A stretch of 27,178 bases of DNA, taken from contig DKTP01000143.1 in assembly GCA_002473085.1 (NCBI GenBank), positions 1 to 27,178 on the forward strand, read 5' to 3'. Shown piece by piece: positions 1,117-17,948 of the stretch (the stretch's first letter is position 1; the number at the start of each line of letters is the position of its first letter). The translations under genes were made by a program, and so were the position numbers. This stretch comes from Anaerolineales bacterium UBA7227. GTDB lineage: Bacteria > Chloroflexota > Anaerolineae > Anaerolineales > Villigracilaceae. The notes under the pieces were generated by a model, which saw only the letters and a list, made by a program, of their open reading frames with translations, was not told the DNA's origin and searched no databases.

Positions 1117-3516
1117 ATGAAACATGTTCGAACATACGCGTTTCTCCTGATCCTGACGGGAATTTTGGTCGCCTGCGCGCCAAAAGCCCAGGTGGTGAAA
1201 ACGGAATACATCCTCACCACCGCCATGCGAGAGGGAAATTTCGTCTACGTGGGCGTGGACGGGGAGATCAACGGCGTAGTCAACCCATCCCTGCGCGCCG
1301 CGCCGGGCGAACGGATCACCGTCATGCTGGTCAACAGCGGCGAAGGCGCGCACGATATCGTCTTCGAACTGCCCACCCAAAAGATAAAATCGGATACGAT
1401 CTCTAAAAAAGGCGAGACCACCACGTTTACCTTCGTCGCGCCGAACAACGACGTGACGGTCAGCTATTACGACTCCACGCACAAAGAACTAGGGATGAGA
1501 GGCGTATTGCTGGTCGGCGCGGCCAGCGGGGAACAGACCGTCCAGGTCCCCGCCGAACAACCGTCCGCAGAGAAGCCCGCCGGCCTGTACGATAAAGAAC
1601 TGGCCGCGCAAGCCATCCAAAAGGGCGGATGCGTGGCCTGTCACGTCATCCCGGGCATCGCCGGCGCGGTCGGCACGATTGGCCCCGACCTGAGCGACAT
1701 CGGCCAGGTAGCGCAGGAACTGATCGACACGGGCGAGTACAAAGGCCCGGCGAAAACAGCCGAGGAGTATCTTACCGAATCGATCGAAGCGCCCGACGCC
1801 TTCATCGCTCCCAACTGCCCCGCCGGTCCGTGCGCCAAGGGCGTGATGCCGGCTTCGCTCGCGCAGACGCTCAGCGCGGAGGAATTGAACAGCATCGTGA
1901 AATACCTGGCGTCCCTGCCGGGCGGGGCCATGACCGAGACAACCGGTTCGGCGGCCGCGCCTGCCGGCGAGGCTCCCCAACTGACCGATGAAGAGTTCGC
2001 CTGGGCCAAGGAGACTTTCTTCGAACGCTGCGCGGGCTGTCACGGGACGCTCCGCAAAGGCGCGACGGGCCCCGCCCTCACGCCCGACATGACCCTCCCG
2101 AAGGGAACCACAGGCCTGGCCGCGATCATCTTTAACGGCACCAACCGCGGCATGCCCGACTGGGGCAAGCAGGGCATTTTGACCCAGGAACAGACCGAGA
2201 CCATGGCGAAGTTCCTGCAACACGAGCCGCCCGCCCCGCCCGAACTTTCGCTGCAACAGATGAAAGATACCTGGCAGTTGATCACCCCGGTGGACAAACG
2301 CCCCACCAGCCCGCAAACCAAGCGCAATATTGACAACTACTTCGTCGTCACCCTGCGCGACGCCGGGAAAGTCGCCATCATTGACGGCGACACCAAGGAG
2401 ATCGTCAGCGAAGTGGACAGCGGCTACGCGGTGCATATCACCCGTATGTCGGCCAGCGGACGTTACGCCTACGTCACCGGGCGCGACGGGCGCCTGGCGA
2501 TGATCGACCTGTGGATGGAGAAACCCGAAGTAGTGGCGCGCGTGCAAACCTGCTACGACGCCCGCTCGGTGGAAGTGAGCAAGTACAACGGCCCCGAAGG
2601 CGACTTCCGCGACAAGTACGCCATCACCGGCTGCTACTGGCCGCCGCACTTCGCCATCATTGACGGGCAGACGCTCGAGCCGATCAAGGTCGTCTCCAGC
2701 CGCAGCTACACCGAAGACACCGGCGAATACCACCCCGAGCCGCGCGTGGCGAGCATCCTGGCCTCGCACTACGCCCCCGAATGGGTGGTCAACGTGAAAG
2801 AAACCGGGCAGATCTGGATCGTGAACTACCTCGACCCGCTCAACCCGACCATCAAGATGAACGACGCCGCGCTCTACCTGCACGACGGCGGTTTGGATTC
2901 CACGCACCGCTACTTCCTGGTCGCCGCCAACCAGTCCAACAAAGTTGCCGTGGTGGACTTGAAAACCGGCGAACTGGTGGGCATCGCCGATGTGGGCGAA
3001 GTTCCGCACCCCGGACGCGGCGCCAACTGGGTGGATCCCGAGTTCGGTCCCGTGTGGGGCACGCCGCACCTGGGCGAAGCCTCCGTCATCCCGATCGGCA
3101 CGGATATCGAAGGGCATCCCGACAGCGCCTGGAAGCCGGTCCGCAAGATCGAACTGCCCGGCTCCGGCAGCCTGTTCATTAAGACCCACCCCAAGAGCAA
3201 GTGGATCTGGGTGGATATGACCCTGAACTCCGACCCGGTCCTGGCGCGCACGGTCTGCGTCATCCCGAAATCCGACCCCACGAAGGTGTACAAGTGCTGG
3301 GAAATCGGCTCCTACGGACGCGCCGTCCACTTTGAATACAACAAACAAGGCACCGAGGTGTGGGTCAGCCTGTGGGGCGACGCCAGCAAACCCGGCGAAA
3401 CTGGCGCCATCGTGATCTACGACGACGAGACGCTGGAAGAAAAAGCGCGCATTGACAACCTGATCACCCCGACCGGCAAGTTCAACGTCTACAACACGGT
3501 GAACGACATCTACTAA
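1117..3516 (+). CDS. nirS: Fused cupredoxin-cytochrome c-cytochrome cd1 nitrite reductase, lipoprotein
   Basis: A 799-residue protein predicted to reduce nitrite to nitric oxide with haem d1. Order: lipoprotein signal with lipobox LVAC, Cys20; cupredoxin-like domain, about residues 30-135; cytochrome c domain 1 with CVACH at 172-176 and a probable axial Met244; cytochrome c domain 2 with CAGCH at 305-309 and Met346; then the eight-bladed d1 propeller, about 400-799. The d1 part keeps the proximal His440 (GYAVHITRMS) and both active-site histidines, His551 (ILASHYAPEW) and His597 (DSTHRYF). Classical NirS is about 560-600 residues with one c haem, so the lipid anchor, cupredoxin and extra cytochrome are additions. 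In the cupredoxin the ligands His79, His122 and Met127 are in place, but the Cys position is Asp119. The gene has its own terminator and none of the nirCFDLGHJ d1-synthesis genes nearby, so haem d1 would have to be made from elsewhere in the genome. Confidence 0.9.
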   Translation: MKHVRTYAFLLILTGILVACAPKAQVVKTEYILTTAMREGNFVYVGVDGEINGVVNPSLRAAPGERITVMLVNSGEGAHDIVFELPTQKIKSDTISKKGETTTFTFVAPNNDVTVSYYDSTHKELGMRGVLLVGAASGEQTVQVPAEQPSAEKPAGLYDKELAAQAIQKGGCVACHVIPGIAGAVGTIGPDLSDIGQVAQELIDTGEYKGPAKTAEEYLTESIEAPDAFIAPNCPAGPCAKGVMPASLAQTLSAEELNSIVKYLASLPGGAMTETTGSAAAPAGEAPQLTDEEFAWAKETFFERCAGCHGTLRKGATGPALTPDMTLPKGTTGLAAIIFNGTNRGMPDWGKQGILTQEQTETMAKFLQHEPPAPPELSLQQMKDTWQLITPVDKRPTSPQTKRNIDNYFVVTLRDAGKVAIIDGDTKEIVSEVDSGYAVHITRMSASGRYAYVTGRDGRLAMIDLWMEKPEVVARVQTCYDARSVEVSKYNGPEGDFRDKYAITGCYWPPHFAIIDGQTLEPIKVVSSRSYTEDTGEYHPEPRVASILASHYAPEWVVNVKETGQIWIVNYLDPLNPTIKMNDAALYLHDGGLDSTHRYFLVAANQSNKVAVVDLKTGELVGIADVGEVPHPGRGANWVDPEFGPVWGTPHLGEASVIPIGTDIEGHPDSAWKPVRKIELPGSGSLFIKTHPKSKWIWVDMTLNSDPVLARTVCVIPKSDPTKVYKCWEIGSYGRAVHFEYNKQGTEVWVSLWGDASKPGETGAIVIYDDETLEEKARIDNLITPTGKFNVYNTVNDIY

Positions 3517-4316: not shown

Positions 4317-4368
4317 AAAGGATTGTCGAATCGCGGGAGTGACTGTATATTTGGCGCAAGGTTTCCGT
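4317..4368. repeat. 52-bp direct repeat, copy 1
   Basis: Bases 4317-4368, from AAAGGATTGTCG to GGTTTCCGT, recur without mismatch at 5210-5261, an offset of exactly 893. Upstream of each copy there is a looser resemblance (T-run then GCCGCG or CCGCCACA). The sequences diverge at once on the right: copy 1 runs into TATAAT (4368-4373), a possible -10 for the next gene. The two copies bracket the DUF2726 gene. Confidence 0.9.
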
Positions 4369-4427
4369 ATAATACATAGTTGGCACGCCCGTGGAAACAA
4401 GTAATTAAAGCAGGAGGCAAAACCTAC

Positions 4428-5099
4428 ATGACAGCCACCACAAAGGAAAAACCGGGTTGCCTAAGCGTTTTATTCCCCCTCTTGAAAAGTCCTCAAAAAA
4501 AGCCGCTTTCGCAGCCACTGCCCTATCGCCTGCGCGACGACTTCCTTTCTCCGGTGGAGTTTTCGTTTTTTAAAGTCCTTTCCTCTCTCGGCGGCGCGCG
4601 GTTGACGATCCAGTCGAAAGTAAGGTTGGCGGACGTGTTCTTCGTCGCTCGTCCTAACGAAAATATGACGTATTTCAGCAGGATTGCCCAAAAGCATTTG
4701 GATTTTCTTGTCTGCGATTCCGTCACGATGAAGCCGCTGCTGGGCATCGAATTGGACGATTCCAGTCACAGACAAAGCGCCAGGCAGGAACGCGACGATT
4801 TCGTTGACAGAGTCTTTGAAGCCGCAGGTCTGCCGTTATTGCGCTTGCCCGTTCGGCGCGAGTACAATACTCAAGACCTTGCCGCTAAAATAGCGCCGCT
4901 TTTGAAGGGTAGAATTAGCCCTTCGACGCCGCGTCCGCAATCTGAAGCAAACCAGCCAGGGAACGTAATCCCGCTCTGCCCTAAATGCGGAATCCCAATG
5001 ACGCTGCGAACCGTCACACAAGGCGAACACAAAGGAAAGCAGTTTTACGGCTGCACAAACTACCCCCGCTGCCGGGAAGTGAAGCCCGGGCCTGCATAG
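4428..5099 (+). CDS. DUF2726 (nuclease-fold) protein with C-terminal topoisomerase-type zinc finger
   Basis: A 223-residue protein. Residues about 32-158 match the DUF2726 pattern, a domain considered related to the PD-(D/E)xK nuclease fold: PVEFSFFKVL near the start, then HLDFLV (Asp92) and GIELDDSSH (Glu108, Asp110), and an LPLLRLPVR strand. Residues 184-215 form a zinc ribbon of the kind found at the end of bacterial topoisomerase I: C-P-K-C (184-187), then Cys209 and Cys215 in YGCTNYPRC. The start is placed at the ATG at 4428, preceded by AGGAGG about 9 bases upstream; a TTG opening at 4380 lacks this. A TATAAT at 4368-4373 might promote it. It lies between two copies of a 52-bp direct repeat and beside the cassette-like unit. 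The nucleic-acid substrate is unknown; DUF2726 genes occur in both housekeeping and mobile settings. Confidence 0.85.
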   Translation: MTATTKEKPGCLSVLFPLLKSPQKKPLSQPLPYRLRDDFLSPVEFSFFKVLSSLGGARLTIQSKVRLADVFFVARPNENMTYFSRIAQKHLDFLVCDSVTMKPLLGIELDDSSHRQSARQERDDFVDRVFEAAGLPLLRLPVRREYNTQDLAAKIAPLLKGRISPSTPRPQSEANQPGNVIPLCPKCGIPMTLRTVTQGEHKGKQFYGCTNYPRCREVKPGPA

Positions 5100-5209: not shown

Positions 5210-5261
5210 AAAGGATTGTCGAATCGCGGGAGTGACTGTATATTTGGCGCAAGGTTTCCGT
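5210..5261. repeat. 52-bp direct repeat, copy 2
   Basis: It is identical to 4317-4368 over 52 bp. After this copy the sequence reads GTATCC rather than ATAATAC, so the TATAAT box at the end of copy 1 is missing. Confidence 0.9.
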
Positions 5262-5315: not shown

Positions 5316-5376
5316 CAATCCTTAACCGTTAGGTGTTCGCCTTGCAAATCAGGTAATTAAACTAAAAGGGAAAAAG

Positions 5377-7671
5377 ATGATTGCAGAAAGTATCATCAAG
5401 ACTCCGCTATCTCAATTGAACATAACAACACGGTCTTATAATCCCCTCAAATCTGCGGGGATACTAACAGTTGAACATTTTTTAAATGCGTACAATGATT
5501 CTTCGATAGATTCGGTCTTAACTCCAAAAACCTACAATTCAATTTATCATCACATACAAACGTTAATTGAAACTTCTAGTCATGGCGTTCTGGACTGGGT
5601 TGCCTATTCAACTCAACTTCAAATTCCCATCATTCCCCAAAATTACACCGCTGGTTCACCCGCCAATGTTATTTTGAAAGAAATTCCTGCAATAGTTGAG
5701 CGGATTTTAGATGATGAACGCAGATGGTATATCATCGAAAGAAGGTTTGAATTCAATAACGCTACGAAACTCACGTTGCAAGATTTAGGAGAGGCCTTTG
5801 GCGGAGTAAGTAGGCAAAGAATTGACCAAATATGGGACGAAGCATTACTAAAGTTGAGAAGCGTGCTAATCGAGCATAACTTCAAAGGGGAAAATTACCG
5901 CATACATCCTGAAGTATTAGAGTTTATCGAAAAGATTATTGTATTTCTAAACGAAAGCATTTCAAATGGAATATTAGAAAACCAACTTTTTGGAATTCTT
6001 CAACAATCTTTTGGCTTGCAAATTAAGCCTGCAAAGCCTGTGTTATTTCTATTACTCGAATTATGTGGTTTTGACTGCTTGGATTTTGGCAATTCAGACT
6101 TAAAACCAATTTGGGGCAGGTTTGATAAATCAAATCGTCGTGTTTATGAAATTGCAATATCACAAATAGATAAGTTGTTGACTATTGAAACTGTTCATCC
6201 CCAAAAGGAGTTTGATGTACTTCGCCTCATCAATAAGTCAATGCCTAAAAATTCAAAATTACTGCCGTCAGACATAAAAACGGCAATTGAATTATGTAGC
6301 ACCGTAGAAAAACGTGAAGACGGTTTATATTGGGGAAAATTTGAATATCTCAAAGGGCGTGGCAACCAAGCAGAAAGACTGCTTATAGAGAATGCGCCAC
6401 AAACTATGAGCATAGATTCGATTGTGAGAGAAATAAATCACCGTTCAGTGCTTCTTGGAACGAGAAGAGCAAATAGCAGAAATGTCGCTAATCAAATTTC
6501 TAAAGATGAAAGATTCGTAACTATTGGAAAAAGTGGTCAGTGGGGCTTAAAGACATGGGAGCATATTGATACTGGCAGTATTGTCGAATTAATGGAAGAA
6601 TTTTTTGCGTGGAAAAATAAGCCAGCCACTGTGGATGAAATATATGAGTACGTTTCCAGCAAACGCCCCGTTGAAAAAAGTTCTGTCACTATGTACTTAT
6701 CCACAAAGGAACAGTTTTCAAAACACGATAGGCTTCAATGGAAGATGGCAAAATGGAATGAGCCTGATGGAAATGTATGGGGATTAGAAGAAGTTGCTGT
6801 TTTTGTGGAAGATGTTTTTAAGAAAAACAAAACGAAGGTTTTAGAATATAAAATTGTTAAACAGGCATTGATGGAAGAAGTAGGGCTTACATCTAAGCAG
6901 GCACAAGGAATGCTGAATATTAACCCTGTGATAGAAACACATCAGGACAAACATAGAAAAATTTTCGCAACTTTGCAAGAAAGTTACCATGATAAACGTT
7001 TACACGTCAAAGCGTTTGGACTACGAAAAGGCAACGCAACATTAGGAGAAAAAATATCGGAGCGCATCAAGGAAATTATTAATGCGTCACCTGATAAACA
7101 AATTTTGTTATCCGAACTTGTAAAAAGGCTCAGGGAAGAATTCAAGTTCAATAATCGCCCTGAACCTTATGGCTATGTTCAGCGAGCAGAATTTGTAGAA
7201 GTAATTGAATTGCCAAATCAAAGGCAGAAAATTTGCCGTATCAAGGTCAATGAGAATTTACAATTTCCTCAAATTGATAAAATCAGCAATATTGGGTTAA
7301 AAGATAAAGTCAAAAGAGCAATAGGATTTTTAAATCTTGAAAATGTAGATATCGGGTTGTTTTTACTTAGCAAAGAATTTGAGTCGACTTTGCTAATGTA
7401 TTTATTGCAGGCTGAAAAGCATGGAAAGATTACAAATCCAACGCCAGGGAAGTGGAAAAGTCTTGATGAAATGATAAATTTTATTTCAAAAGAAGGTTTG
7501 ATTACAGACAAAGCCACTTTACATTATCTCAGGCAAAAGCGAAATGACCGCGCTCATGGAACTATGCCCACTATTGAAGAACGTCAACTTATGATGAATA
7601 ATTTGCAAGTCGTTACAAATCTTTACATTGATTACATAAAGTTCTTCGATGATAGGACAAATGCCTTATGA
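5377..7671 (+). CDS. Multidomain DNA-binding protein: alpha-CTD-like, sigma region 4-like, HARE-like modules, C-terminal HEPN-like
   Basis: A 764-residue protein of unknown function. Residues 10-36 (LNITTRSYNPLKSAGI core) resemble the helix-hairpin-helix of the RNA polymerase alpha C-terminal domain; compare LDLSVRVFNSLKRTGI in the rpoA of this window. Residues about 112-165 resemble sigma-70 region 4: ERRF, LTLQDLGEAFGGVSRQRIDQI, then EALLKLR. Residues about 331-395, 401-470, 472-533 and 558-624 look like winged-helix repeats. The first has the basic turn and GQWGLKTWE end typical of HARE-HTH domains. Residues about 640-764 are helical with L-R-Q-K-R-N-D-R-A-H-G; the R722-x4-H727 motif matches the active-site pattern of HEPN ribonucleases. 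No membrane segment or signal is visible. GGGAAAAAG precedes the ATG. The gene is A+T-rich and sits alone in a cassette-like unit. A conflict or defence role is inferred from HEPN plus mobility and is not proven; a regulator acting on RNA polymerase is the main alternative. Confidence 0.8.
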   Translation: MIAESIIKTPLSQLNITTRSYNPLKSAGILTVEHFLNAYNDSSIDSVLTPKTYNSIYHHIQTLIETSSHGVLDWVAYSTQLQIPIIPQNYTAGSPANVILKEIPAIVERILDDERRWYIIERRFEFNNATKLTLQDLGEAFGGVSRQRIDQIWDEALLKLRSVLIEHNFKGENYRIHPEVLEFIEKIIVFLNESISNGILENQLFGILQQSFGLQIKPAKPVLFLLLELCGFDCLDFGNSDLKPIWGRFDKSNRRVYEIAISQIDKLLTIETVHPQKEFDVLRLINKSMPKNSKLLPSDIKTAIELCSTVEKREDGLYWGKFEYLKGRGNQAERLLIENAPQTMSIDSIVREINHRSVLLGTRRANSRNVANQISKDERFVTIGKSGQWGLKTWEHIDTGSIVELMEEFFAWKNKPATVDEIYEYVSSKRPVEKSSVTMYLSTKEQFSKHDRLQWKMAKWNEPDGNVWGLEEVAVFVEDVFKKNKTKVLEYKIVKQALMEEVGLTSKQAQGMLNINPVIETHQDKHRKIFATLQESYHDKRLHVKAFGLRKGNATLGEKISERIKEIINASPDKQILLSELVKRLREEFKFNNRPEPYGYVQRAEFVEVIELPNQRQKICRIKVNENLQFPQIDKISNIGLKDKVKRAIGFLNLENVDIGLFLLSKEFESTLLMYLLQAEKHGKITNPTPGKWKSLDEMINFISKEGLITDKATLHYLRQKRNDRAHGTMPTIEERQLMMNNLQVVTNLYIDYIKFFDDRTNAL

Positions 7672-7679
7672 CAAAAAAC

Positions 7680-7802
7680 GCCTAACAAAGCGTGCAGTGG
7701 ATTGGCGGGATTCGTCGCCATTTTCAAGCATTTTTCTGGCTTTGAGTTTTTCCTGCTCTCAAACATTTTCTACGCCCGCCCGCCAACCACTAACGCAGAC
7801 CG
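7680..7802 (+). other. attC-like recombination site
   Basis: It begins with GCCTAAC (7680-7686), a perfect R'' box (RYYYAAC). The arms pair as GCGT (7690-7693) with ACGC (7793-7796), GTGG (7697-7700) with CCAC (7787-7790) and TTGGCGGG (7702-7709) with CCCGCCAA (7779-7786). A7701 is left unpaired, like the extrahelical bases that orient attC. The long internal loop has its own TTTGAG/CTCAAA hairpin. In the excised circle the R' box would be GTTAGGT, which matches R'' in 6 of 7 positions. Confidence 0.65.
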
Positions 7803-7899
7803 TTCACAGGGCATCGCGGCAAAATACCCCTCAACAGATTCCCGACAGGCTTTTCTCATCCCACGCGAACGCTTTTACCCCCCTCTCCGCCGCTCGCCG

Positions 7900-9489: not shown

Positions 9490-9930
9490 TTAAACCAGCG
9501 GTTCGGGTTTCTGCATCGCGTGCGGATGCTCGGCTTCGGCGTAGATCTTCAAACGCTTCAAGAGCGAGCGTCCCATGCGGTTGTGCGGCAGCATGCCCCA
9601 CACCGCCGCGCGGATGGCGCGGTCGGGGCGCGTCTGCAACTGGTCGCGCAGGGTGATGGATTTCATCCCGCCGGGATAGCCCGAGTGATGGTAGTACTTC
9701 TTCGTGTTCAGGCGGCTGCTGGTCCTCGTGCCGGTCACGGCCACGGCGCCGGCGTTCACCACCACCACGTAATCGCCCATCTCCACGCCGGGCGTGAAAG
9801 TGGGTTTATGTTTGCCGAGCAAGACGCGCGCAATGCGGGTGGCCATGCGCCCCAGGTTCTGCCCGGTGGCGTCCACCACGTACCATTTGCGTTCGATCTC
9901 GCCCGCTTTCGGATAATATGACTTGAACAT
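9490..9930 (-). CDS. rplM: 50S ribosomal protein L13
   Basis: A 146-residue early-assembly protein that binds 23S rRNA. Family features: WYVVDATGQNLGRMATRIA (16-34), the GDYVVVVNA strand (52-60) and the WGMLPHNRMGRSLLKRLKIY signature (111-130). GGAG lies about 7 bases before the ATG. It starts 19 bp after the truA stop, and rpsI follows. Confidence 0.98.
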   Translation of the reverse strand: MFKSYYPKAGEIERKWYVVDATGQNLGRMATRIARVLLGKHKPTFTPGVEMGDYVVVVNAGAVAVTGTRTSSRLNTKKYYHHSGYPGGMKSITLRDQLQTRPDRAIRAAVWGMLPHNRMGRSLLKRLKIYAEAEHPHAMQKPEPLV

Positions 9931-9944
9931 CGTTACTCCAACTG

Positions 9945-9972
9945 ACAGTTTACGGTTTTTGATTTAAGGTTG
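9945..9972. repeat. Single-arm heptamer stretch over the truA stop codon
   Basis: Units ACAGTTT, ACGGTTT, TTGATTT, AAGGTTG share a 7-base spacing. The stretch covers the last few truA codons, the truA stop and part of the truA-rplM gap, so the C-terminal residues of TruA (LNQKP) appear to be repeat-derived. Confidence 0.45.
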
Positions 9973-10708
9973 AATCCTTGTAGGCGACTTCGATCAGACT
10001 CAGCCCGTGCGCGGGAGCCAGTCCCGAGGGGAGTTTGACCTGCTCCTCGACCGCCCGGCGGATCTGCCCGACGGTCAACCTGCCCTGCGCCGCGGCGACC
10101 TGCGCGAAGACGAGACGCCGCGCCATGCGATACAAGAACGCGTCCGCGCGGACCTCGTAACGCCACTCCCCCTCCGACTCGGTCCACGCTGAGAGCGAGA
10201 CCGTCCGGACGGTGGAGCCTCCGCGCGTCGTCGGCGAGCCGAAGGCCGCGAAGTCATGCTTTCCGAGGAAAACGGGACTGACCGACCGGAGCAGGTCGCC
10301 GTCCACGGCCGGCCAGACTCTCCACGCGTAGCGTTCGCGTACGGGGTCGCGGACGGGGTCGCAGAAGAGACGGTAGCGGTAGAGACGCGAGGCGGCGTCG
10401 AAGCGCGGCTGGAAGTCGGGTTGCGCTTCGCGGGCGGCGCGCACGGCCAGGTCGGGAGGCAGGGCCGCGTTCAGGGCGGCGCGCAACTTGTCGGGACCGT
10501 GAGGCCACTCGAAGTCCAGCGCGACCGATTGCCCTTCGGCGTGGACTCCGCTGTCGGTGCGCCCGGCGATGAGGACCGAGCGTCCCGTCCAGCCGAGAGT
10601 CCGCAGGGCTTTTTCGAGTTCGCCCTGGGCCGTCCGTCTGGCTTTCTGCCTCTGGCTGCCTGCAAATTTGGCGCCGTCGTAGGCAAGGATCAACTGGTAA
10701 CGTGCCAT
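9950..10708 (-). CDS. truA: tRNA pseudouridine synthase A
   Basis: A 252-residue enzyme that turns U38-U40 of the tRNA anticodon arm into pseudouridine. The catalytic Asp is Asp52 in AGRTDSGVHAEGQ, and the FRFYR-like strand appears as SRLYRYRLF. The usual Gly-Trp-Gln-Arg-Gln near residue 17 is Gly-Ser-Gln-Arg-Gln here. No Shine-Dalgarno sequence precedes the ATG: the upstream 66 bp is a heptamer hairpin whose transcribed strand is pyrimidine-rich next to the start. It sits between rplQ and rplM, a common gene order (rplQ-truA-rplM-rpsI). The C-terminus runs into another heptamer stretch. Confidence 0.95.
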   Translation of the reverse strand: MARYQLILAYDGAKFAGSQRQKARRTAQGELEKALRTLGWTGRSVLIAGRTDSGVHAEGQSVALDFEWPHGPDKLRAALNAALPPDLAVRAAREAQPDFQPRFDAASRLYRYRLFCDPVRDPVRERYAWRVWPAVDGDLLRSVSPVFLGKHDFAAFGSPTTRGGSTVRTVSLSAWTESEGEWRYEVRADAFLYRMARRLVFAQVAAAQGRLTVGQIRRAVEEQVKLPSGLAPAHGLSLIEVAYKDSTLNQKP

Positions 10709-10713
10709 GTGCA

Positions 10714-10775
10714 GAGATTAGAGAGTAGAGAGCAGAGAGCAGGTACTACTCTCTAATCTCTGTTCTCTACTCTCT
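10714..10775. repeat. Heptamer inverted repeat between rplQ and truA
   Basis: Left arm: GAGATTA, GAGAGTA, GAGAGCA, GAGAGCA (10714-10741). Right arm: ACTCTCT, AATCTCT, GTTCTCT, ACTCTCT (10748-10775). Four units face four complementary units over a 6-base loop. It spans the whole gap, touches the rplQ stop codon and ends 5 bp from the truA ATG. Confidence 0.9.
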
Positions 10776-11152
10776 TATTCTTCAACAAGTTCGAGGATCA
10801 CCATTTCCGCCGAATCGCCCATGCGCGGGCCGAGTTTGACCACGCGGGTGTAGCCGCCGGGTTTGTTGGCGAAGCGCGGGGCGATCTCGTCGAAGAGGCG
10901 CTTGATGACTTCGTTGCCGCCGAGGCGGGAGGCCACGAGACGGCGGGCGTGGACTTTGGCGGCCTCGTCCTTGTCGGCGCTGTTGCGCGCAATGGTGATG
11001 AGGCGCTCGGCCTCGCCGCGCACCGCGGCCGCCTTGGCGCGCGTGGTGCGGATGCGCTCGTGGGTGAAGAATTGTTTAATGAGGTTGCGGCGCAAACCGA
11101 TGCGGGCGCTTTTGGTGCGTCCCAGTTTGTAGCCGGATACTTGGTGTCGCAT
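10775..11152 (-). CDS. rplQ: 50S ribosomal protein L17
   Basis: A 125-residue protein near the peptide exit tunnel. The N-terminus is typical (MRHQVSGYKLGR, then HERIRTTRAKA at about 31-41), and the C-terminal part has the NKPGGYTRVVKLGPRMGD core seen in all L17. It starts 6 bp after the rpoA stop, so the two are translated from one message. Its stop codon overlaps the heptamer hairpin that precedes truA. Confidence 0.98.
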   Translation of the reverse strand: MRHQVSGYKLGRTKSARIGLRRNLIKQFFTHERIRTTRAKAAAVRGEAERLITIARNSADKDEAAKVHARRLVASRLGGNEVIKRLFDEIAPRFANKPGGYTRVVKLGPRMGDSAEMVILELVEE

Positions 11153-11158
11153 ATCTGA

Positions 11159-12127
11159 TTACTCCGCGGATGTCGTATCGTCTTTCAAATAGCCCTTTTC
11201 GCGCATTTTCTGGCGGAGTTCGTCGAGACTCTTTTCGCCGAAGTTGCGGATGGACATGACGGCTTGCTCGCCCTTTTCGAGCAGGTCCAGCACGTCGCCC
11301 ACGTTGGTGATACCGGTGCGCTTGAGAGAGTTGAAGACGCGCACCGAGAGGTCGAGGGCTTCCACCGGGGTCTCAGCCACTTCGCTGGTGATGCGGCCGC
11401 CGGCGACTTCCTTCTCGAGGGGGATTGTCAGCGTTTCTTCGCTGATGCCCGCGATGAACCGCAGCTGGTCGATGAGGGCGCGGCTGGCGGCGCTGAGGGC
11501 GCGTTCGGGCGAAATGGCGCCGTCGGTCCAGATCTCGAGCGTCAGTTTGTCGTAGTTGGTGCTTTGGCCGACGCGGGCCGAGCCCACTTCCCAGTTCACG
11601 CGTTTGACCGGGCTGAAGATGGCGTCCACCGGCAGTTCGCCGATGGGCGTATGTCCCGAGCGTTCGTTGGCGGGCGAGTAGCCCCGTCCGCGTTCGACCA
11701 TAAATTCGATGTCGAGTTTGGCCTTGGGGCTGTCCACCGTAAAGAGAAAGAGGTCCGGGTTGACGATCTCGATCTCGGGCGGCGCGATGATGTCGGCCGC
11801 GGTGACGGTGCCTTCGCCGCGCACTTCCAGGTGCATGCGGGCGCTGTCCACGCCGTCCAGTTTCATGCGCAGTTGTTTGACCTGCAGCGTGACCTGGATG
11901 ACGTCTTCGCGCACGCCGGGGATGTCGCTGAACTCGTGCAGGACGTCCAGGATGCGGATGGAGGTCACGGCCGCGCCGTCCAGCGAGGACAGCAAGACGC
12001 GGCGAAGCGCGTTCCCGACGGTGACGCCATAGCCGCGCTCAAGCGGACTGATGATGAATTTGCCGTAGTTGCGAGCTTCCGCTTCGCGCTCGATCTTCGG
12101 CATGACCATGTTCGTGATACCCGTCAC
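11159..12127 (-). CDS. rpoA: RNA polymerase alpha subunit
   Basis: A 322-residue subunit that dimerises to nucleate RNA polymerase assembly and contacts promoter UP elements and activators. The N-terminal domain has PLERGYGVTVGNALRRVLLS; the alpha-CTD spans about 255-315 with LDLSVRVFNSLKRTGI and MSIRNFGEKSLDEL. A GTG start at 12127 is preferred because AGGAGAGG lies 6 bases upstream; in-frame ATGs at 12109 and 12103 are alternatives that would remove 6 or 8 residues. It lies downstream of rpsD across a GC-rich hairpin and just upstream of rplQ. Confidence 0.97.
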   Translation of the reverse strand: MTGITNMVMPKIEREAEARNYGKFIISPLERGYGVTVGNALRRVLLSSLDGAAVTSIRILDVLHEFSDIPGVREDVIQVTLQVKQLRMKLDGVDSARMHLEVRGEGTVTAADIIAPPEIEIVNPDLFLFTVDSPKAKLDIEFMVERGRGYSPANERSGHTPIGELPVDAIFSPVKRVNWEVGSARVGQSTNYDKLTLEIWTDGAISPERALSAASRALIDQLRFIAGISEETLTIPLEKEVAGGRITSEVAETPVEALDLSVRVFNSLKRTGITNVGDVLDLLEKGEQAVMSIRNFGEKSLDELRQKMREKGYLKDDTTSAE

Positions 12128-12156
12128 GGTTCACCTCTCCTGTCGTTAGAAAACAG

Positions 12157-12186
12157 GCTTCGGCCGGTCGCTCGACCGACCGAAGC
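12157..12186 (-). other. Hairpin between rpsD and rpoA
   Basis: GCTTCGG (12157-12163) pairs with CCGAAGC (12180-12186) and GGTCG (12166-12170) with CGACC (12173-12177), with a two-base internal loop on each side. On the transcribed strand it is followed by CTGTTTTC. It could be a weak terminator, an attenuator or a processing site that sets the rpoA level apart from the ribosomal genes upstream. Confidence 0.6.
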
Positions 12187-12197
12187 GTTGACCAGTA

Positions 12198-12848
12198 CTA
12201 CCGTGAGTAGTATTCGACGATCAACTGTTCGTTCAAGTTGCCGTCAATCTCCGCGCGCTCAGGCAGGCGCGCGACGGAACCGCTCAATTTCCTGAGGTCG
12301 CGTCCGAGCCAGGCCGGCGAGACGCGCTTCTCGGCCAGGTCGCCCAGTTCTTTGAAGTAGGACAGGGGGCGCGAGCCTTCGCGGACTTCGATGGTATCGC
12401 CCTCTTTAAGGATCATCGAGGGGATGTCGGTGCGGCGGCCATTGACCATAAAGTGGCCGTGGGTCACCAGCAGGCGGGCCTGCGCGCGGCTGGCGGCAAA
12501 CCCGAGACGGTAGATGACGTTATCGAGACGGGACTCGAGGATCTGCAGCAGGTTGAGACCGGTCAACCCGCGGCGGGCCACCGAGGTCTCGTAATAGCGG
12601 CGGAACTGGCGTTCGAGGATGCCGTAGACGCGGCGGGCGCGCTGTTTGGCGCGCAGCTGGCGGGCATAGTCGGATTCGCGTCCCGTGCGGGTGGCGCTGC
12701 CGCGGCTGCCGGTCTTTCCATGTTGACCGGGGGCGTAGGCGCGCTTTTCGAGCGCGCATTTCGGCGTGAAGCAGCGCTCGCCTTTCAGAAACAGTTTCTC
12801 GCCTTCGCGCCGGCAGAGTTTGCACACCGGACCAATGTTTTTTGCCAT
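12198..12848 (-). CDS. rpsD: 30S ribosomal protein S4 (zinc-binding type)
   Basis: A 216-residue primary 16S rRNA-binding protein. Cys9, Cys12, Cys26 and Cys31 form the N-terminal zinc knuckle of the C+ form of S4. The S4 RNA-binding domain covers about residues 104-155 ([15 protein letters not shown], then [15 protein letters not shown]). The C-terminus IVEYYSR is typical. S4 often represses its own operon; any target site here is not identified. It lies between rpsK and rpoA. Confidence 0.98.
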
Positions 12849-12869
12849 ATCTCTTTTTCCTTACCTGAA

Positions 12870-13274
12870 CTAAACGCGGCGCTTCTTTGGCGGACGGCAG
12901 CCGTTGTGCGGCACCGGGGTAATGTCCGAAATGGAGCGGACTTTCAACCCGGCGGCCTGCACGGCGCGGATGGCGTTTTCCCGCCCGGGGCCGGGACCTT
13001 TGACGAACAGGTCCACTTCCTGGATGCCCAGTTGCTGGGCGGCCTTGACGGCCTGCTCCGCGGCGAGGCGGGCGGCGAAGGGCGTGCTTTTGCGCGAACC
13101 TTTAAATCCCGCCGACCCGGCGCTGCCCCAGGCAACCGTGTTGCCCTGCACGTCGGTGACTGTCACGATGGTATTGTTGAACGAGGCAAAGACATGCACC
13201 TGCCCCGCGGACAGGCTGCGCTTGCCTTTTTTCGCGCCGACGGCGCGGCGCGTGGAACGAACGCTTTGAGCCAT
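12870..13274 (-). CDS. rpsK: 30S ribosomal protein S11
   Basis: A 134-residue platform protein that lies beside the mRNA exit. Diagnostic parts are [16 protein letters not shown] (about 26-41), [14 protein letters not shown] and the C-terminal [15 protein letters not shown]. Length is slightly above the usual 129 because of a basic N-terminal run. It follows rpsM by 15 bp. Confidence 0.98.
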
Positions 13275-13289
13275 GTTGTATCTCTCCTG

Positions 13290-13676
13290 CTATTTCTTTC
13301 CGCCCTTGCGGCGTCCACGGCCGGCGACGGTCTTCTTGGCGCCCTTGCGGGTGCGCGCATTCGTGCGCGAGCGCTGACCGCGCGTCGGCAGGTTGCGGCG
13401 GTGGCGCAGGCCGCGGTAACTGCCGATCTCGATCAGCCGTTTGATGTTCATCTGCATCTCGCGGCGCAGGTCGCCCTCCACCGTGAGATGTTTGGTGATG
13501 TATTCGCGCAGCAGGGCCGTTTCCGCTTCGCTCAGGTCTTTCACCCGCGTATCGGGATTCACTTTGGCGGCGGAAAGGATTTCACGCGCGCGCGACGGCC
13601 CGATCCCATAGATATAGGTCAGACCGGTTTCCACCCGCTTGTTGCGGGGCAGATCAACGCCTTCGATACGAGCCAT
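13290..13676 (-). CDS. rpsM: 30S ribosomal protein S13
   Basis: A 128-residue head protein that bridges to the 50S subunit and P-site tRNA. It starts [20 protein letters not shown], has the [20 protein letters not shown] signature (about 87-106) and ends in a long Lys/Arg tail. It follows rpmJ by 9 bp and precedes rpsK. Confidence 0.98.
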
Positions 13677-13685
13677 AGTTTACAC

Positions 13686-13799
13686 CTATCCCTGTCGTTG
13701 CTTGTGCTTGGGATTTTCGCAGATCACGAACAATCTGCCTTTGCGACGCACCACTTTGCACTTGGCGCAGCGCTTGCGAATTGAGGGTGAGACTTTCAT
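13686..13799 (-). CDS. rpmJ: 50S ribosomal protein L36 (zinc-binding type)
   Basis: A 37-residue protein, starting [20 protein letters not shown]. Cys11, Cys14, Cys27 and His32 make the zinc site of C+ L36. The start is at 13799, with AAGGAG 9 bases upstream; the longer open frame reaching 14015 crosses map in another frame and is not used. It is the first gene after a good promoter (13849-13877), so it seems to head the alpha operon here. In most bacteria infA would come just before it. Confidence 0.97.
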
Positions 13800-13848
13800 T
13801 ACAAAAAACTCCTTCAAGTTGGCCGTCGCCTGGACAGCCAAAGATTGG

Positions 13849-13877
13849 ATTATACACGCGCTGTTTCGTTCCGTCCA
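13849..13877 (-). promoter_or_regulatory. Putative alpha-operon promoter upstream of rpmJ
   Basis: On the minus strand TGGACG (13872-13877, 4 of 6 against TTGACA) is followed after 17 bp by a perfect TATAAT (13849-13854). The expected start lies about 40 bp before the rpmJ ATG. The site lies in the 119-bp map-rpmJ gap. Confidence 0.65.
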
Positions 13878-13888
13878 GAGAAACGCGG

Positions 13889-13906
13889 CGCAAAATTGAT
13901 TTTGCG
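13889..13906 (-). other. Hairpin between map and the rpmJ promoter
   Basis: CGCAAAA (13889-13895) pairs with TTTTGCG (13900-13906) over the loop TTGA, 13 bp beyond the map stop. There is no T-run outside the stem, so it is not a classic terminator, but it marks the join between the spc-type unit and the alpha unit. Confidence 0.45.
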
Positions 13907-13918
13907 GCGCCAACGGGT

Positions 13919-14689
13919 CTAAGGAACAGTCAGGATGAGGGGCTCTCCTGTGGTGACGGCCACCGAATGCTCGAAGTGCGCCGTCAAAGACCCGTCGGCT
14001 GAGACAACCGTCCACTGGTCGGGGAGGACGCGGGTTACGTGCGTCCCCGCAAGGACCATCGGCTCGATGGCGATGGTCATGCCTGGGCGAAGAGGCAGGC
14101 CCGTCCCCGCTTTCCCGTAATTGGGAACTTGCGGGTTTTCGTGCATCTGCCGTCCCACGCCGTGCCCGGTGTATTCACGCGTGACGTGATACCCGCGGCT
14201 TTCGACGTACTGTTGTATCGCCGCCGAGACGTCTCCGGTGCGGTTGCCGACCCGCATCTTTTCGATGCCTGCCCACAAGGCGCCTTCGGTGACTTCGAGC
14301 AGTTCGCGGGCCTTCGGCGAGATCTCGCCCACCCCGGCCGTGATGGCCGAGTCGCCCACGTAACCGTCCAGGATGGTGCCCGAGTCGATGGAGACGATGT
14401 CTCCCTCGCGCAGTTTGCGGTCCTTTTTCGGGATGCCGTGCACCAGTTCGCGGTTGACGCTCGTGGTGATGGAGGCCGGGAACGGCGGGTGGCCGTAGCC
14501 TTTGAACGGCGATACGCAATTGTGTTTCCGTAATACCTCCTCAGCAGCCGCGTTGAGGTCGGCGGTGGAAACACCCGGTTGTAAAAGAGCCTTGACCGTC
14601 GCCAGGATTTCGGCGTTGATGCGCCCGGCTTCGCGCATGATGGCGATCTCGGCCGGACTTTTGATATGCACCTGGCGCAACTGGTCCAT
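13919..14689 (-). CDS. map: Methionine aminopeptidase, type I
   Basis: A 256-residue dimetal enzyme that removes the N-terminal Met from new proteins. The five metal ligands are in register with the E. coli enzyme: Asp102 and Asp113 ([16 protein letters not shown]), His176 ([12 protein letters not shown]), Glu209 (AIEPMV) and Glu240 (HFEHSV); His84 matches the catalytic His of the HGIP motif. The start ATG lies one base after the adk stop, so translation is probably coupled. The gene directly downstream is rpmJ, not infA. Confidence 0.98.
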
Positions 14690-14690
14690 G

Positions 14691-15341
14691 TCAGCGTTTC
14701 AAGGCAGACAGGAAGGCGTTCATCACCTGTTGAATATCCTGTGTGCCGTCAATCTCCACCAGGTTGCCGCGCTGACGGTAAAAAGTGATGAGCGGCGCGG
14801 TCTGTTCGAGGTAGACCTGGATGCGGCGAACGACGGTTTCGGATTTGTCGTCGTCGCGCTGGTAGAGTTCGGACCCGTCGAAGTCGCAGACATTGGCCTG
14901 CCTGGGCGGGTTGTTCTTGTCGTGGAAAATATGCCCGTTGGCGCGGCAGGTCCAGCGGCCGGAGAGGCGCTCCACGAGGACTTTTTCGGGAGCGGTGACG
15001 TAGGGGACCTTGTCCACTTTGCCGCCGAATTCGGCGAGCGTCTTCTCGAGGGCGTCGGCCTGCGCGACGGTGCGGGGAAAGCCGTCCAGGATCGCGCCCG
15101 CCTGACAGTCGGGGTTTTTGAGGCGTTCGCGGATCATGGCGATCGTCACGTCGTCCGGGACCAGTTCGCCCTTGTTCATGTAGGTCTGGGCGAGTTTGCC
15201 CAGTTCCGTCTGGTTTTTCAGGTTCTCACGAAAGAGGTCGCCCGAGGAAATGTGCGCCAGTTGAAGCCGCTCCGAGAGCAACTTGGCCTGTGTGCCTTTT
15301 CCGACGCCGGGCGGGCCGAGTAGAACGATGAAGGTTGCCAT
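14691..15341 (-). CDS. adk: Adenylate kinase
   Basis: A 216-residue kinase that interconverts ATP + AMP and 2 ADP. It has the P-loop GPPGVGKGTQ (9-18), the AMP-binding DGFPRT (86-91) and a long-form LID domain at about 128-165. In the LID the positions that hold four zinc ligands in Gram-positive enzymes read Cys132, Asn135, Cys152 and Asp155, so one Cys is replaced by Asn and zinc binding is doubtful. It starts 7 bp after the secY stop, the normal secY-adk-map order. Confidence 0.97.
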   Translation of the reverse strand: MATFIVLLGPPGVGKGTQAKLLSERLQLAHISSGDLFRENLKNQTELGKLAQTYMNKGELVPDDVTIAMIRERLKNPDCQAGAILDGFPRTVAQADALEKTLAEFGGKVDKVPYVTAPEKVLVERLSGRWTCRANGHIFHDKNNPPRQANVCDFDGSELYQRDDDKSETVVRRIQVYLEQTAPLITFYRQRGNLVEIDGTQDIQQVMNAFLSALKR

Positions 15342-15348
15342 GTCGCGC

Positions 15349-16719
15349 CTATTTGACGAGCAGGGTGTCCTGGTAGCCGTGCAGTTTTAGTTCGGCTTCG
15401 ATGTTCATGAAGGTGTCGCGCACGACGCCGACCACGATGAGCAGGCCCGAAGACGAGACGAGGAACAGGCCGGCCGAACTGCTGGCTGTGCTGACGTTGA
15501 AACTCTTCAACAGCAGGCTGATGATGAACGGCATGATGGCGACGAGTCCCAGGAACAGGGCGCCCGGAAGCGTGATGAGGCTCTGGACGCGCTTGAGGTA
15601 TTTCTGGGTGGGCGCGCCGCGGTTGACGCCGGGGATCTGCGCGCCCATACGCTTGAGATTGTCGCCGTAGTTCTGCTGGTCGAACAGCACAGTGGTATAG
15701 AAGAAGGTGAACGCGACCACCATGAAGAAATACAGGATCCAGTAGAGCGCGCCGTCGCCGCCGAGGTTTCCCTGGACCCAGCTTGCCGCGCTCTTCACCC
15801 AGATGGTTTCGGACTGGCTGAAGTAACTGGCGATGATGACCGGGAATTGGAGCAGGGCGCTGGCGAAGATGAGCGGAATCATGCCGGCCATGTTGACCAT
15901 GAGCGGCAGCGTGCCTTTCACCGGCATGGACATGCGGTTTCCCATGCGGCGGCCGGGATACATCACCGGCACGTTGCGGCGTCCCTGCTGGATGTAGACG
16001 ATGGCGATGATGGTGACGATGATGACGAACAGGGTCACGCCCAGCAACACCCAGCGGTAGGTCTGGTCGCCCATCAACCCCGCGAAGTTGCCCGGCATGC
16101 GCGCCACGATGCCCGCGAAGATGATCAGGGAAAGTCCCTGCCCGCGGATGCCGTATTCCGAGATCAACTCGCCCAGCCAGATGGCGAACATCGTACCGGC
16201 CGTCATGGCCAGCAGGATGGCCGTCGAAGACAGCCACAGGTCCTTCGTAAAGCCAAACGGTACGATAGTCTGCTGGGCCAGCGAGTTGAAGATATTGATC
16301 TGGCCGATGGCCGAAAGCGCCGCCATAGGCACAGCCAGGTAGTAGTTCCATTTCTCCATCCACTTGCGGCCTTCGCGCGGGTCTTCCTCCACGCGGCGCT
16401 GCAAAGCGGGGATAATCGGCACGAGCAGCTGCATGATGATCTGCGCCGTGATGTACGGGTAGACGCCCATCGAGAGCAGGGAGAAATTGGAGATCGTCCC
16501 GCCGGAAAGCAGATCGAGGAAACCCAGGAAGTTCCCGCCGGCGTTGGCGGAACTGGTGAACGCCTGCAACGCGTCGTGGTTGATGCCCGGCGCCGGGACG
16601 TTGGCCGCCAGGCGATAGAGCGCCAGGAGACCGAGCGTGACCAGCAGTTTCTGGCGGATATCCTGCGAGTTCCAAATGTGCCGCACGTAACGCCATGCGG
16701 AGGGTTTCTTTTGAGCCAT
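15349..16719 (-). CDS. secY: Protein translocase subunit SecY
   Basis: A 456-residue channel protein of the SecYEG translocon in the cytoplasmic membrane. Many hydrophobic segments fit the ten-helix topology; family stretches include LGLLALYRLAANVPAPGI (helix 1), SMGVYPYITAQIIMQLL (helix 2) and the YGDNLKRMGAQIPGV region. AGGAG lies about 8 bases before the start. It lies between rplO and adk in the spc-type cluster. Confidence 0.98.
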   Translation of the reverse strand: MAQKKPSAWRYVRHIWNSQDIRQKLLVTLGLLALYRLAANVPAPGINHDALQAFTSSANAGGNFLGFLDLLSGGTISNFSLLSMGVYPYITAQIIMQLLVPIIPALQRRVEEDPREGRKWMEKWNYYLAVPMAALSAIGQINIFNSLAQQTIVPFGFTKDLWLSSTAILLAMTAGTMFAIWLGELISEYGIRGQGLSLIIFAGIVARMPGNFAGLMGDQTYRWVLLGVTLFVIIVTIIAIVYIQQGRRNVPVMYPGRRMGNRMSMPVKGTLPLMVNMAGMIPLIFASALLQFPVIIASYFSQSETIWVKSAASWVQGNLGGDGALYWILYFFMVVAFTFFYTTVLFDQQNYGDNLKRMGAQIPGVNRGAPTQKYLKRVQSLITLPGALFLGLVAIMPFIISLLLKSFNVSTASSSAGLFLVSSSGLLIVVGVVRDTFMNIEAELKLHGYQDTLLVK

Positions 16720-16743
16720 GTCAGGTCTCCTGATGAAACGCCG

Positions 16744-17199
16744 CTAGGCGATCAACTCCACGCTGCCGCCGGCCGCCTCGATCTTGGACTTGGCGGCCGC
16801 GCTAACTCGGTGGACGCGCACTTTCAGGGCAGACTTCGCCTCGCCGCGTCCGAGGATGACGACGGGCTTGCGCGGGTCGCGCAACAGCCGCGCCTCGGCC
16901 AGCGATTCGGGCGTGACTTCGGCGTTCGCCTGGAACGACTCGGTCAACTGGTCCAGGTTGATTTCGTTGTATTCCACGCGGTTGATGGAGCGGAATCCTT
17001 CGCCGCGCATGAACGGCAGGCGGCGATAGAACGGCAGGTTGCCGCCCTGGCGATAGAGACGTCCGCCCTCGCCGGAGCGCGAGCCCTGTCCTTTGGTGCC
17101 GCGCCCGGCCGTCTTGCCCTGGCCGGCCGCGGAGCCGCGTCCCACGCGCTTGCGATTCTTCTTGGAGCCCGGATTGGGCGTGAGATCGTGTAATTTCAT
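16744..17199 (-). CDS. rplO: 50S ribosomal protein L15
   Basis: A 151-residue late-assembly protein. The first 50 residues are the glycine/arginine-rich arm (KRVGRGSAAGQGKTAGRGTK) and the C-terminal half holds the VILGRGEAKSALKVRVHRVS domain. It follows rpmD by 7 bp and precedes secY. Confidence 0.98.
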   Translation of the reverse strand: MKLHDLTPNPGSKKNRKRVGRGSAAGQGKTAGRGTKGQGSRSGEGGRLYRQGGNLPFYRRLPFMRGEGFRSINRVEYNEINLDQLTESFQANAEVTPESLAEARLLRDPRKPVVILGRGEAKSALKVRVHRVSAAAKSKIEAAGGSVELIA

Positions 17200-17206
17200 T
17201 TTCGGT

Positions 17207-17404
17207 CTACTCTTCCACTCGAAGCAGGTGGCTGATCTTGGCCAGCATCCCGCGCAGGGCGGGATTGTCCTTGTGTTCCACCGTCTGGTTCATCCGGCGC
17301 AGACCCAGCGCGCGCACGGTCCTCTTCTGATCCTTGGCGTAGCCGATGGCGCTTTTGACCAGCGTAATGCGCAAAGTCTTGCCGCTTGTTTCCTTTTTAG
17401 GCAT
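17207..17404 (-). CDS. rpmD: 50S ribosomal protein L30
   Basis: A 65-residue protein with the L30 pattern: [20 protein letters not shown] then [20 protein letters not shown] and a final [13 protein letters not shown] helix. Its start overlaps the rpsE 3' end by 8 bp, which suggests coupled translation. Length is normal (about 58-65). Confidence 0.98.
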
Positions 17405-17948
17405 GTTGATTCCTCCGTTCCCAGAACGGCATCAACTCGTTCACAGGCTTGCCGCGGCGGGCGGCTTCCTTCTGCGGAGAGCGCATCTGATCGAGGGCCG
17501 CGAAGGTCGCCATCACAACGTTCAGCACGTTGGCCGAGCCAAGCGACTTGGTCAGGATATCGCGCACGCCGGCCACTTCCAGCACGGCGCGCACGCCGCC
17601 CGCGGCGATTACGCCGGTGCCGGGCGAGGCGGGCTTCAGGAAGACCCTGGCCCCGGCCACTTTGCCGATGCTCTCGTGCGGGACGGTGGTCCCCGCCAGG
17701 TTGACCTGGCGCAGGTCCTTGCGCGCCCGCTCAGAGGCCTTGCGCATCGCGTCGGGGACGGCGTTGGCCTTGCCCACGCCCATCCCGATGGAGCCTTTCC
17801 TGTCGCCCACCACCACGGTCACGCGGAACTGGAAGCGGCGCCCGCCCTTGACGACTTTCGCGACGCGGGCGATCTCGATCACGCGTTCTTCGTAGGCGTC
17901 CTGTTGCTCGAAGTCCTGCTGTTCAGGTTTCTTGTTATATTCAGCCAT
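17397..17948 (-). CDS. rpsE: 30S ribosomal protein S5
   Basis: A 183-residue protein at the mRNA entry side that affects decoding accuracy. Core parts are [20 protein letters not shown] and [20 protein letters not shown], then the C-terminal [15 protein letters not shown]. The start is placed at the ATG at 17948; GTGGAG is 6 bases upstream, and the longer frame beginning at that GTG (17960) would have no ribosome-binding site of its own. A short Gln/Glu-rich N-terminal segment precedes the fold. Confidence 0.96.

Follow-up and report, generated by a model that had tools for sequence, protein, structure and literature searches.

HEPN domains of the DUF4145-like family have been described in several architectures, and a family table in the 2013 survey by Anantharaman et al. 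(PMC3710099) lists fusions to a sigma helix-turn-helix (SIGMA-HTH), to TIR and to ATPase domains. The consulted part of that survey also places the expected R-x4-6-H motif at the end of the third HEPN helix. On the DNA-binding side, PglW of type 2 BREX has a domain like the C-terminal domain (CTD) of the RNA polymerase alpha subunit followed by winged helix-turn-helix (HTH) domains, and the sections of PMC12839542 available to us treat the Hma systems as BREX-related. We describe here a gene at positions 5377-7671 of a 27,178-nucleotide stretch from Anaerolineales bacterium UBA7227 (phylum Chloroflexota; contig DKTP01000143.1; "the window" denotes this whole stretch), the 764-residue product of which has an alpha-CTD-like domain, a sigma-70 region 4, an array of winged helices and a C-terminal HEPN domain. 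Since the fusion of HEPN with a sigma HTH was tabulated in 2013, we consider this protein a variation on a known theme. In the literature searched we found no account of the full chain, of the exchange of its effector or of the Drt8-HEPN fusion reported below, and the main HARE-HTH paper (PMC3272235), outside that search, may hold an earlier mention; the consulted part of PMC3710099 has no mention of an alpha-CTD/HARE chain, a Drt8 fusion or a Schlafen exchange. The reading that we favor, with a probability of about 55%, is that of a mobile one-gene defence RNase of the abortive-infection type, equipped with a DNA-reading sensor.

The gene is a single intact open reading frame (ORF), present in one copy in the 3.0-Mb draft genome, and it fills an integron-type cassette. 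The features are:

5377..7671, forward strand: alpha-CTD/sigma region 4/winged-helix/HEPN gene, 764 residues
5383..5574, forward strand: RNA polymerase alpha-CTD-like helix-hairpin-helix domain, residues 3-66
5662..5871, forward strand: sigma-70 region 4-like HTH, residues 96-165, recognition helix R146-Q-R148-xx-Q151
5908..6117, forward strand: winged helix 1, residues 178-247, placed by the secondary structure of the model only
6127..6336, forward strand: winged helix 2, residues 251-320, resembling a cullin winged helix
6358..6549, forward strand: winged helix 3, HARE/RNA polymerase delta-like, residues 328-391 (TIGR04567, E 3e-5)
6580..6747, forward strand: winged helix 4, RNA polymerase delta-like by structure, residues 402-457
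6784..6975, forward strand: winged helix 5, residues 470-533
7042..7242, forward strand: winged helix 6, LOTUS/MecI-like, residues 556-622
7267..7668, forward strand: HEPN domain, residues 631-764, with a weak DUF4145 match and structural matches
7540..7557, forward strand: HEPN motif R722-N-D-R-A-H727, conserved in the alignment of relatives
5329..7802, forward strand: integron-type gene cassette of 2.47 kb, from TTAGGTG... to ...GACCG, apparent G|TT points at 5328/5329 and 7802/7803
7680..7804, forward strand: attC of the cassette, R'' GCCTAAC at 7680-7686, ending in GTT and then other sequence

The initial annotation had anticipated much of this layout, and our analysis confirmed the parsing of the protein together with the HEPN and cassette assignments. 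The alpha-CTD-like helix-hairpin-helix, claimed at about 10-36, is modelled as a domain at about 3-66 that the RpoA models match by their CTD, and the sigma region 4-like HTH, expected at about 112-165, was found at 96-165. Of the roughly four HARE-type winged helices proposed for 331-624, the winged-helix array itself stands, but six modules were modelled (178-622) and specific HARE or delta support extends to only two of them.

The C-terminal domain is the predicted effector, and both its fold and its R722-x4-H727 dyad are supported. HEPN chains were its best structural matches in the Foldseek ranking, in which none of the matches fell below E 0.001, and the DUF4145 family (PF13643) scored 14.9 bits (E 0.028), below its gathering score of 23.1; the HEPN assignment is made because motif, structural ranking and family evidence were taken together. 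In the model the dyad lies at the end of helix 712-726, ahead of helix 733-763, and helix 712-726 is the third when 696-705 is treated as an insertion. Loss of the dyad in close homologues would have spoken against the original assignment, but when 85 proteins were aligned with MAFFT, all 84 rows ungapped at these positions had R722 and N723, and all 83 ungapped at H727 had the histidine. Similarly, a pattern search found R..RNxxxH in 92 of 97 relatives and in none of 108 other proteins; three of the remaining five have RNxxxH after K719, and the other two (P0037 and P0085) stop at or before the motif. Such invariance of R722, N723 and H727 in the ungapped rows is what an active HEPN RNase should show; RNA cleavage itself is a prediction.

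In the scaffold that precedes the HEPN domain, the sigma-70 region 4 profile scored 23.7 bits in one scan (cut-off 24.1) and 28.4 bits, above the cut-off, in another, and it reaches up to 60.8 bits in relatives. The recognition helix is well conserved (R146 in 61, R148 in 63 and Q151 in 63 of 63 sequences), but where the commonest residues among relatives are E at 147 and R at 150 (52 of 63 in each case) the studied protein has Q147 and D150. By sigma70 numbering (with the roles of R584, E585, R588 and Q589), these are two of the positions that contact the -35 element, and this branch may therefore have changed its specificity. The rest of a sigma factor was not seen: no region 2 family of Pfam matched at E<=1, a level at which weak matches can be lost to the HMMER filters, and the full-length sigma models align only by their region 4 end, the extracytoplasmic function (ECF) model scoring 12.7 bits against a cut-off of 42.9. 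The alpha N-terminal dimerisation domain is likewise absent, with RpoA models aligning only from about position 234 onwards, which is the CTD. The HARE-HTH profile gives 14.5 bits in the studied protein against a cut-off of 25.9 and exceeds this cut-off in three relatives (P0028, P0013 and the one at locus L076), and of the six winged helices the one of HARE type shows the strongest conservation (mean entropy 1.66). A Foldseek search with the whole model gave three matches below E 0.001, all to RPC62-type proteins with multiple winged helices, at TM-scores of about 0.1, and these were not used.

The description of the gene as cassette-borne proved correct: it is the sole long ORF within 5329-7802, the cassette has its own attC, and the two genomes of the same genus that were searched are without the gene. 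The left edge retains TTAGGT, with TTAGGTG starting 48 bases upstream of the start codon, and the attC of about 125 bp starts 8 bases past the stop codon. This site is 68-85% identical to eight attC sites of relatives (seven from the same-genus genome G064 and one from G407), these being the 8 of 18 scanned matches that have a clear R', while shuffles reach at most 56%; its DNA-strand fold has a z of -2.38, equalled by 4 of 200 shuffles. The R'' core, with at most one mismatch, occurs in 15 copies in G064 against none for the reversed-pattern control, and a search of 21 genomes found it in 10, again with none for the reversed control. G064 has integron-type arrays on three small contigs (L094, L095 and L096), where successive cores lie 0.7-2.6 kb from each other. 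In place of the final R' bases, the window attC has other sequence (G|TTCACAGGG). Because of this replaced R' end and the TTAGGTG upstream, we suggest that a single cassette was inserted into a secondary G|TT site, which would leave the edges seen. The draft genome that holds the window, 96.8% complete, yielded no clear integron integrase (best match 21.3 bits, cut-off 265). In another genome (G964, locus L077), a HEPN-type relative adjoins a GNAT gene and a truncated integron integrase (TIGR02249, E 9.2e-29, 100.8 bits, cut-off 265). An attC-like site spotted by eye beside that relative folds no better than shuffles (z -0.24) and is only suggestive as evidence of a cassette.

Both halves of the protein are modular and are exchanged with parts of known defence systems. 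For the HEPN half, a search with residues 628-764 returned 58 proteins, the query's own included and the first four of the following fusions among them, and the HEPN profile built here matches all of these fusions at E 8e-41 or better: to NYN-REC (P0086), to an NNH2-NACHT-type ATPase (P0087), to TIR and DUF5679 (P0091), to a reverse transcriptase (P0096), and a protein from G300 with weak ATPase matches that ends in the HEPN unit. The reverse transcriptase of P0096 matches the PADLOC Drt8 model over residues 5-517 (E 7.6e-139), making this a defence reverse transcriptase with its own predicted RNase. P0091, the TIR domain of which matches ThsB of PADLOC (E 6.5e-44), has two predicted effectors within one chain.

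The scaffold half occurs in turn with a different effector. In genome G313 (locus L045) a scaffold relative without HEPN ends in a Schlafen AlbA_2 domain (E 2e-15), and its gene is flanked by HmaA and HmaB, with a 4-base overlap on either side, and HmaC follows. A search with this protein gave 297 proteins; among the best 120 of these, 11 (P0098-P0108) are of the scaffold-AlbA_2 kind, and the matches placed after P0109 have only AlbA_2 in common with it, at 19-21% coverage. The scaffold profile matched all 12 of the proteins tested (P0098-P0109) at E<=3.1e-74 and the HEPN profile none. Among 35 scaffolds placed on a tree, those of AlbA_2 type form one clade (100/100), and the effector labels need two changes in total, the minimum possible; the midpoint root does not tell which way the swap went, and the L076 sequence sits on a long branch. 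This sequence is from genome G651, where a scaffold with three alpha-CTDs, sigma region 4 and HARE has no recognised nuclease; its gene overlaps a TGT-family gene by 4 bases, after which come the gene of a 1358-residue protein that has no match in Pfam and then a HerA-type gene. This gene run (L076, 290-12000), with its HerA-type ATPase, is possibly a DNA-modification defence system. In G592 a truncated scaffold, located at the end of its contig, lies near GmrSD and a PbeA-like helicase.

The distribution of the family is patchy. Our A4 profile at E<=1e-20 matched in 7 of 400 genomes of the phylum, 6 of 396 of the class, and 4 of 158 and 1 of 177 in other samples; the samples overlap, and the matches include the gene's own genome, fragments, the HEPN-only G300 and the AlbA-only G693. 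Ordinary sigma factors were set aside: 71 of the 400 genomes match at E<=1e-3, most over about 90-170 only, and the stricter A4 threshold leaves the seven, own genome included. G693 was also rejected as a relative, its match spanning only 631-757 and no ORF of at least 90 residues at its locus (L075) matching the scaffold or HEPN profile; its 1028-residue ORF looks like an AlbA_2-type ATPase, pulled in by the AlbA_2 part of A4. At L075 (6929-12136, reverse strand) there are two adjoining large proteins, each with an AlbA_2-like stretch, one of which terminates a DUF262/GmrSD-like protein by sequence reading. No copy was found in the two genomes of the genus or the 18 of the family that were searched, tblastn gave no match in collections of plasmids and phages, and exact peptide patterns gave none in viral contigs. 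What occupies the slot from the 3590-4219 gene to mazG differs between genomes: a GNAT-like gene (so named by reading) in G400 and a different 692-residue gene in G403; tblastn of the studied protein against five compared loci of this slot gave no match. For this variability and the absence from the same-genus and same-family genomes searched, a housekeeping role was rejected as the main reading.

The gene neighborhoods are mixed. The window gene lies between a DUF2726 gene on the left and, on the right, mazG with a ribosomal-protein cluster (by ORF reading); mazG is not counted as a defence neighbor because it is present in 20 of 21 relatives and stands with rpsI in all five loci compared. 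Ten loci of HEPN-type relatives were examined (L031-L036, L046, L048, L077 and L078), and at four of them (L031, L033, L035 and L036) no recognised defence gene was seen among the partly scanned neighbors. Both the window's own surroundings and these four loci speak against a defence function or at least do not support it. At other loci, the gene is near a VWA-CoxE/AAA_5/DUF5682 cluster (Herpetosiphon L048, with matching ORFs in L032), a Fic gene (L034), a PIN/Phd pair (L078, G972) or Trypco1 and a trypsin-NACHT protein (L046, G168). At this last locus (9556-17631), the relative has an in-frame TAA, and the trypsin-NACHT-HEAT protein is of 1818 residues. Homologues are not confined to housekeeping loci. 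The original interpretation as a whole is supported in part: the domain parsing, the HEPN assignment, the cassette and the link to defence through relatives' fusion partners and operons uphold it, the count of four winged helices had to be corrected, and the neighborhoods are mixed.

As to DNA binding, RNA cleavage, the activation step, the trigger and phage protection, we infer the following course. The scaffold, with its alpha-CTD, sigma region 4 and six winged helices, two of them RNA polymerase delta-like, would read DNA and probably sits on promoter-like or otherwise recognised sites. Phage attack would alter this bound DNA or its transcription, which would release or dimerise the HEPN domain; RNA cleavage through R722 and H727 would then stop phage production. 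In a more specific and rather doubtful version, the protein mimics in one chain the promoter contacts of the RNA polymerase holoenzyme, the alpha-CTD binding upstream DNA and sigma region 4 the -35 element and the beta-flap, with the delta-like HARE domains added; at promoters or on the polymerase it would detect phage takeover of transcription and cut RNA by HEPN, as one use of a general platform that has a Schlafen-type effector or none elsewhere. If the defence reading is true, this is a portable immune RNase with a sensor made of transcription-machinery parts, in which the recognition of promoters would lead straight to the destruction of RNA. With HEPN and Schlafen AlbA_2 interchanged on one scaffold, and HEPN fused to Drt8, a ThsB-like TIR and NACHT-type sensors, there is a modular set for probing the target of the promoter-like sensor.

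What the scaffold senses could instead be chemically modified or unmodified DNA, the protein being a type-IV-like system with an RNase effector in place of a DNase. Scaffold relatives stand beside a DUF1156 methyltransferase (Hma) and a TGT-family protein, and TGT-type enzymes of DNA 7-deazaguanine modification exist. No other winged helix of the array is as well conserved as the HARE one, and in the consulted part of PMC10853773 HARE-HTH is described as recognising modified-base DNA. While the relatives' operons would fit modified DNA about as well as promoter or transcription state, the HEPN-type cassette holds no methyltransferase or TGT, its scanned neighbors being DUF2726 and MazG, and we regard this alternative as fairly unlikely.

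It is more improbable that the protein is a host regulator that directs transcript cleavage near promoters in stress or dormancy rather than in phage defence. Patchy presence, carriage on a cassette and swaps with defence effectors and sensors argue against such a role, which the resemblance of the N-terminal modules to polymerase-associated parts and the location of some relatives among apparently ordinary genes would suit; the 2013 survey, in the part consulted, proposed a dormancy role for integron HEPN genes (PMC3710099). Finally, MtlR and nucleotidyltransferase-partner chains are also among the structural matches of the HEPN domain, as if this were chiefly a dimerisation module and the protein simply a transcription regulator or DNA-binding subunit. 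The invariant R722, N723 and H727 accord with an active HEPN RNase, and we consider a mere dimerisation role highly improbable.

Elsewhere in the window, the DUF2726 gene upstream of the cassette (4380-5099, forward strand; PF10881, E 3.2e-28) also encodes a topoisomerase-type C4 zinc ribbon (PF01396, E 2.3e-9). An exact 52-bp direct repeat lies on either side of it (4317-4368 and 5210-5261), perhaps the footprint of its insertion. Further upstream (1117-3516, forward strand) a 799-residue protein has a weakly cupredoxin-like part, cytochrome c domains and a cytochrome D1 heme domain.

How does this protein compare with the known systems? It shares with the DUF4145-like HEPN family of PMC3710099 a HEPN domain with R-x4-6-H and the kinds of fusion tabulated there (sigma HTH, TIR and ATPase), but its Pfam match is sub-threshold, and the sigma fusion listed in the consulted part may be of another family. 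The same survey describes a HEPN gene in an integron cassette (PDB 3jrt); this, however, belongs to a separate HEPN family, is from Gammaproteobacteria, and no sensor scaffold is mentioned for it in the part consulted. HEPN systems of the HepT-MntA type have an adjacent MNT antitoxin, but the genes adjacent to ours are DUF2726 and MazG by Pfam. These are also not HmaA, HmaB or HmaC, the rest of the genome not having been searched for Hma, so that the likeness to the DUF499-centred, BREX-related Hma systems lies in the scaffold-AlbA_2 relative inside one Hma operon (L045). The HARE-type winged helix recalls RNA polymerase delta (RpoE), but here the two delta-like domains form part of an extended series of DNA-binding domains that ends in HEPN. 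MzaA of the MZA system shares the sigma region 4 HTH, and its PADLOC model matches 15 of 25 A4 members (best 1.7e-11), the match being confined to that HTH wherever ranges are shown. PglW has the same order of alpha-CTD and winged HTHs, and its model matches 3 of the 25 members and covers residues 193-386 of the L076 protein (E 1.2e-21); unlike our scaffolds, which have HEPN, AlbA_2 or nothing recognised, it has these domains preceded by a kinase and followed by an inactive STAND module, according to the available sections of PMC12839542. A chain of alpha-CTD, sigma region 4 and HARE that is partly matched by both the PglW and the MzaA models suggests a sensing platform common to several defence systems.
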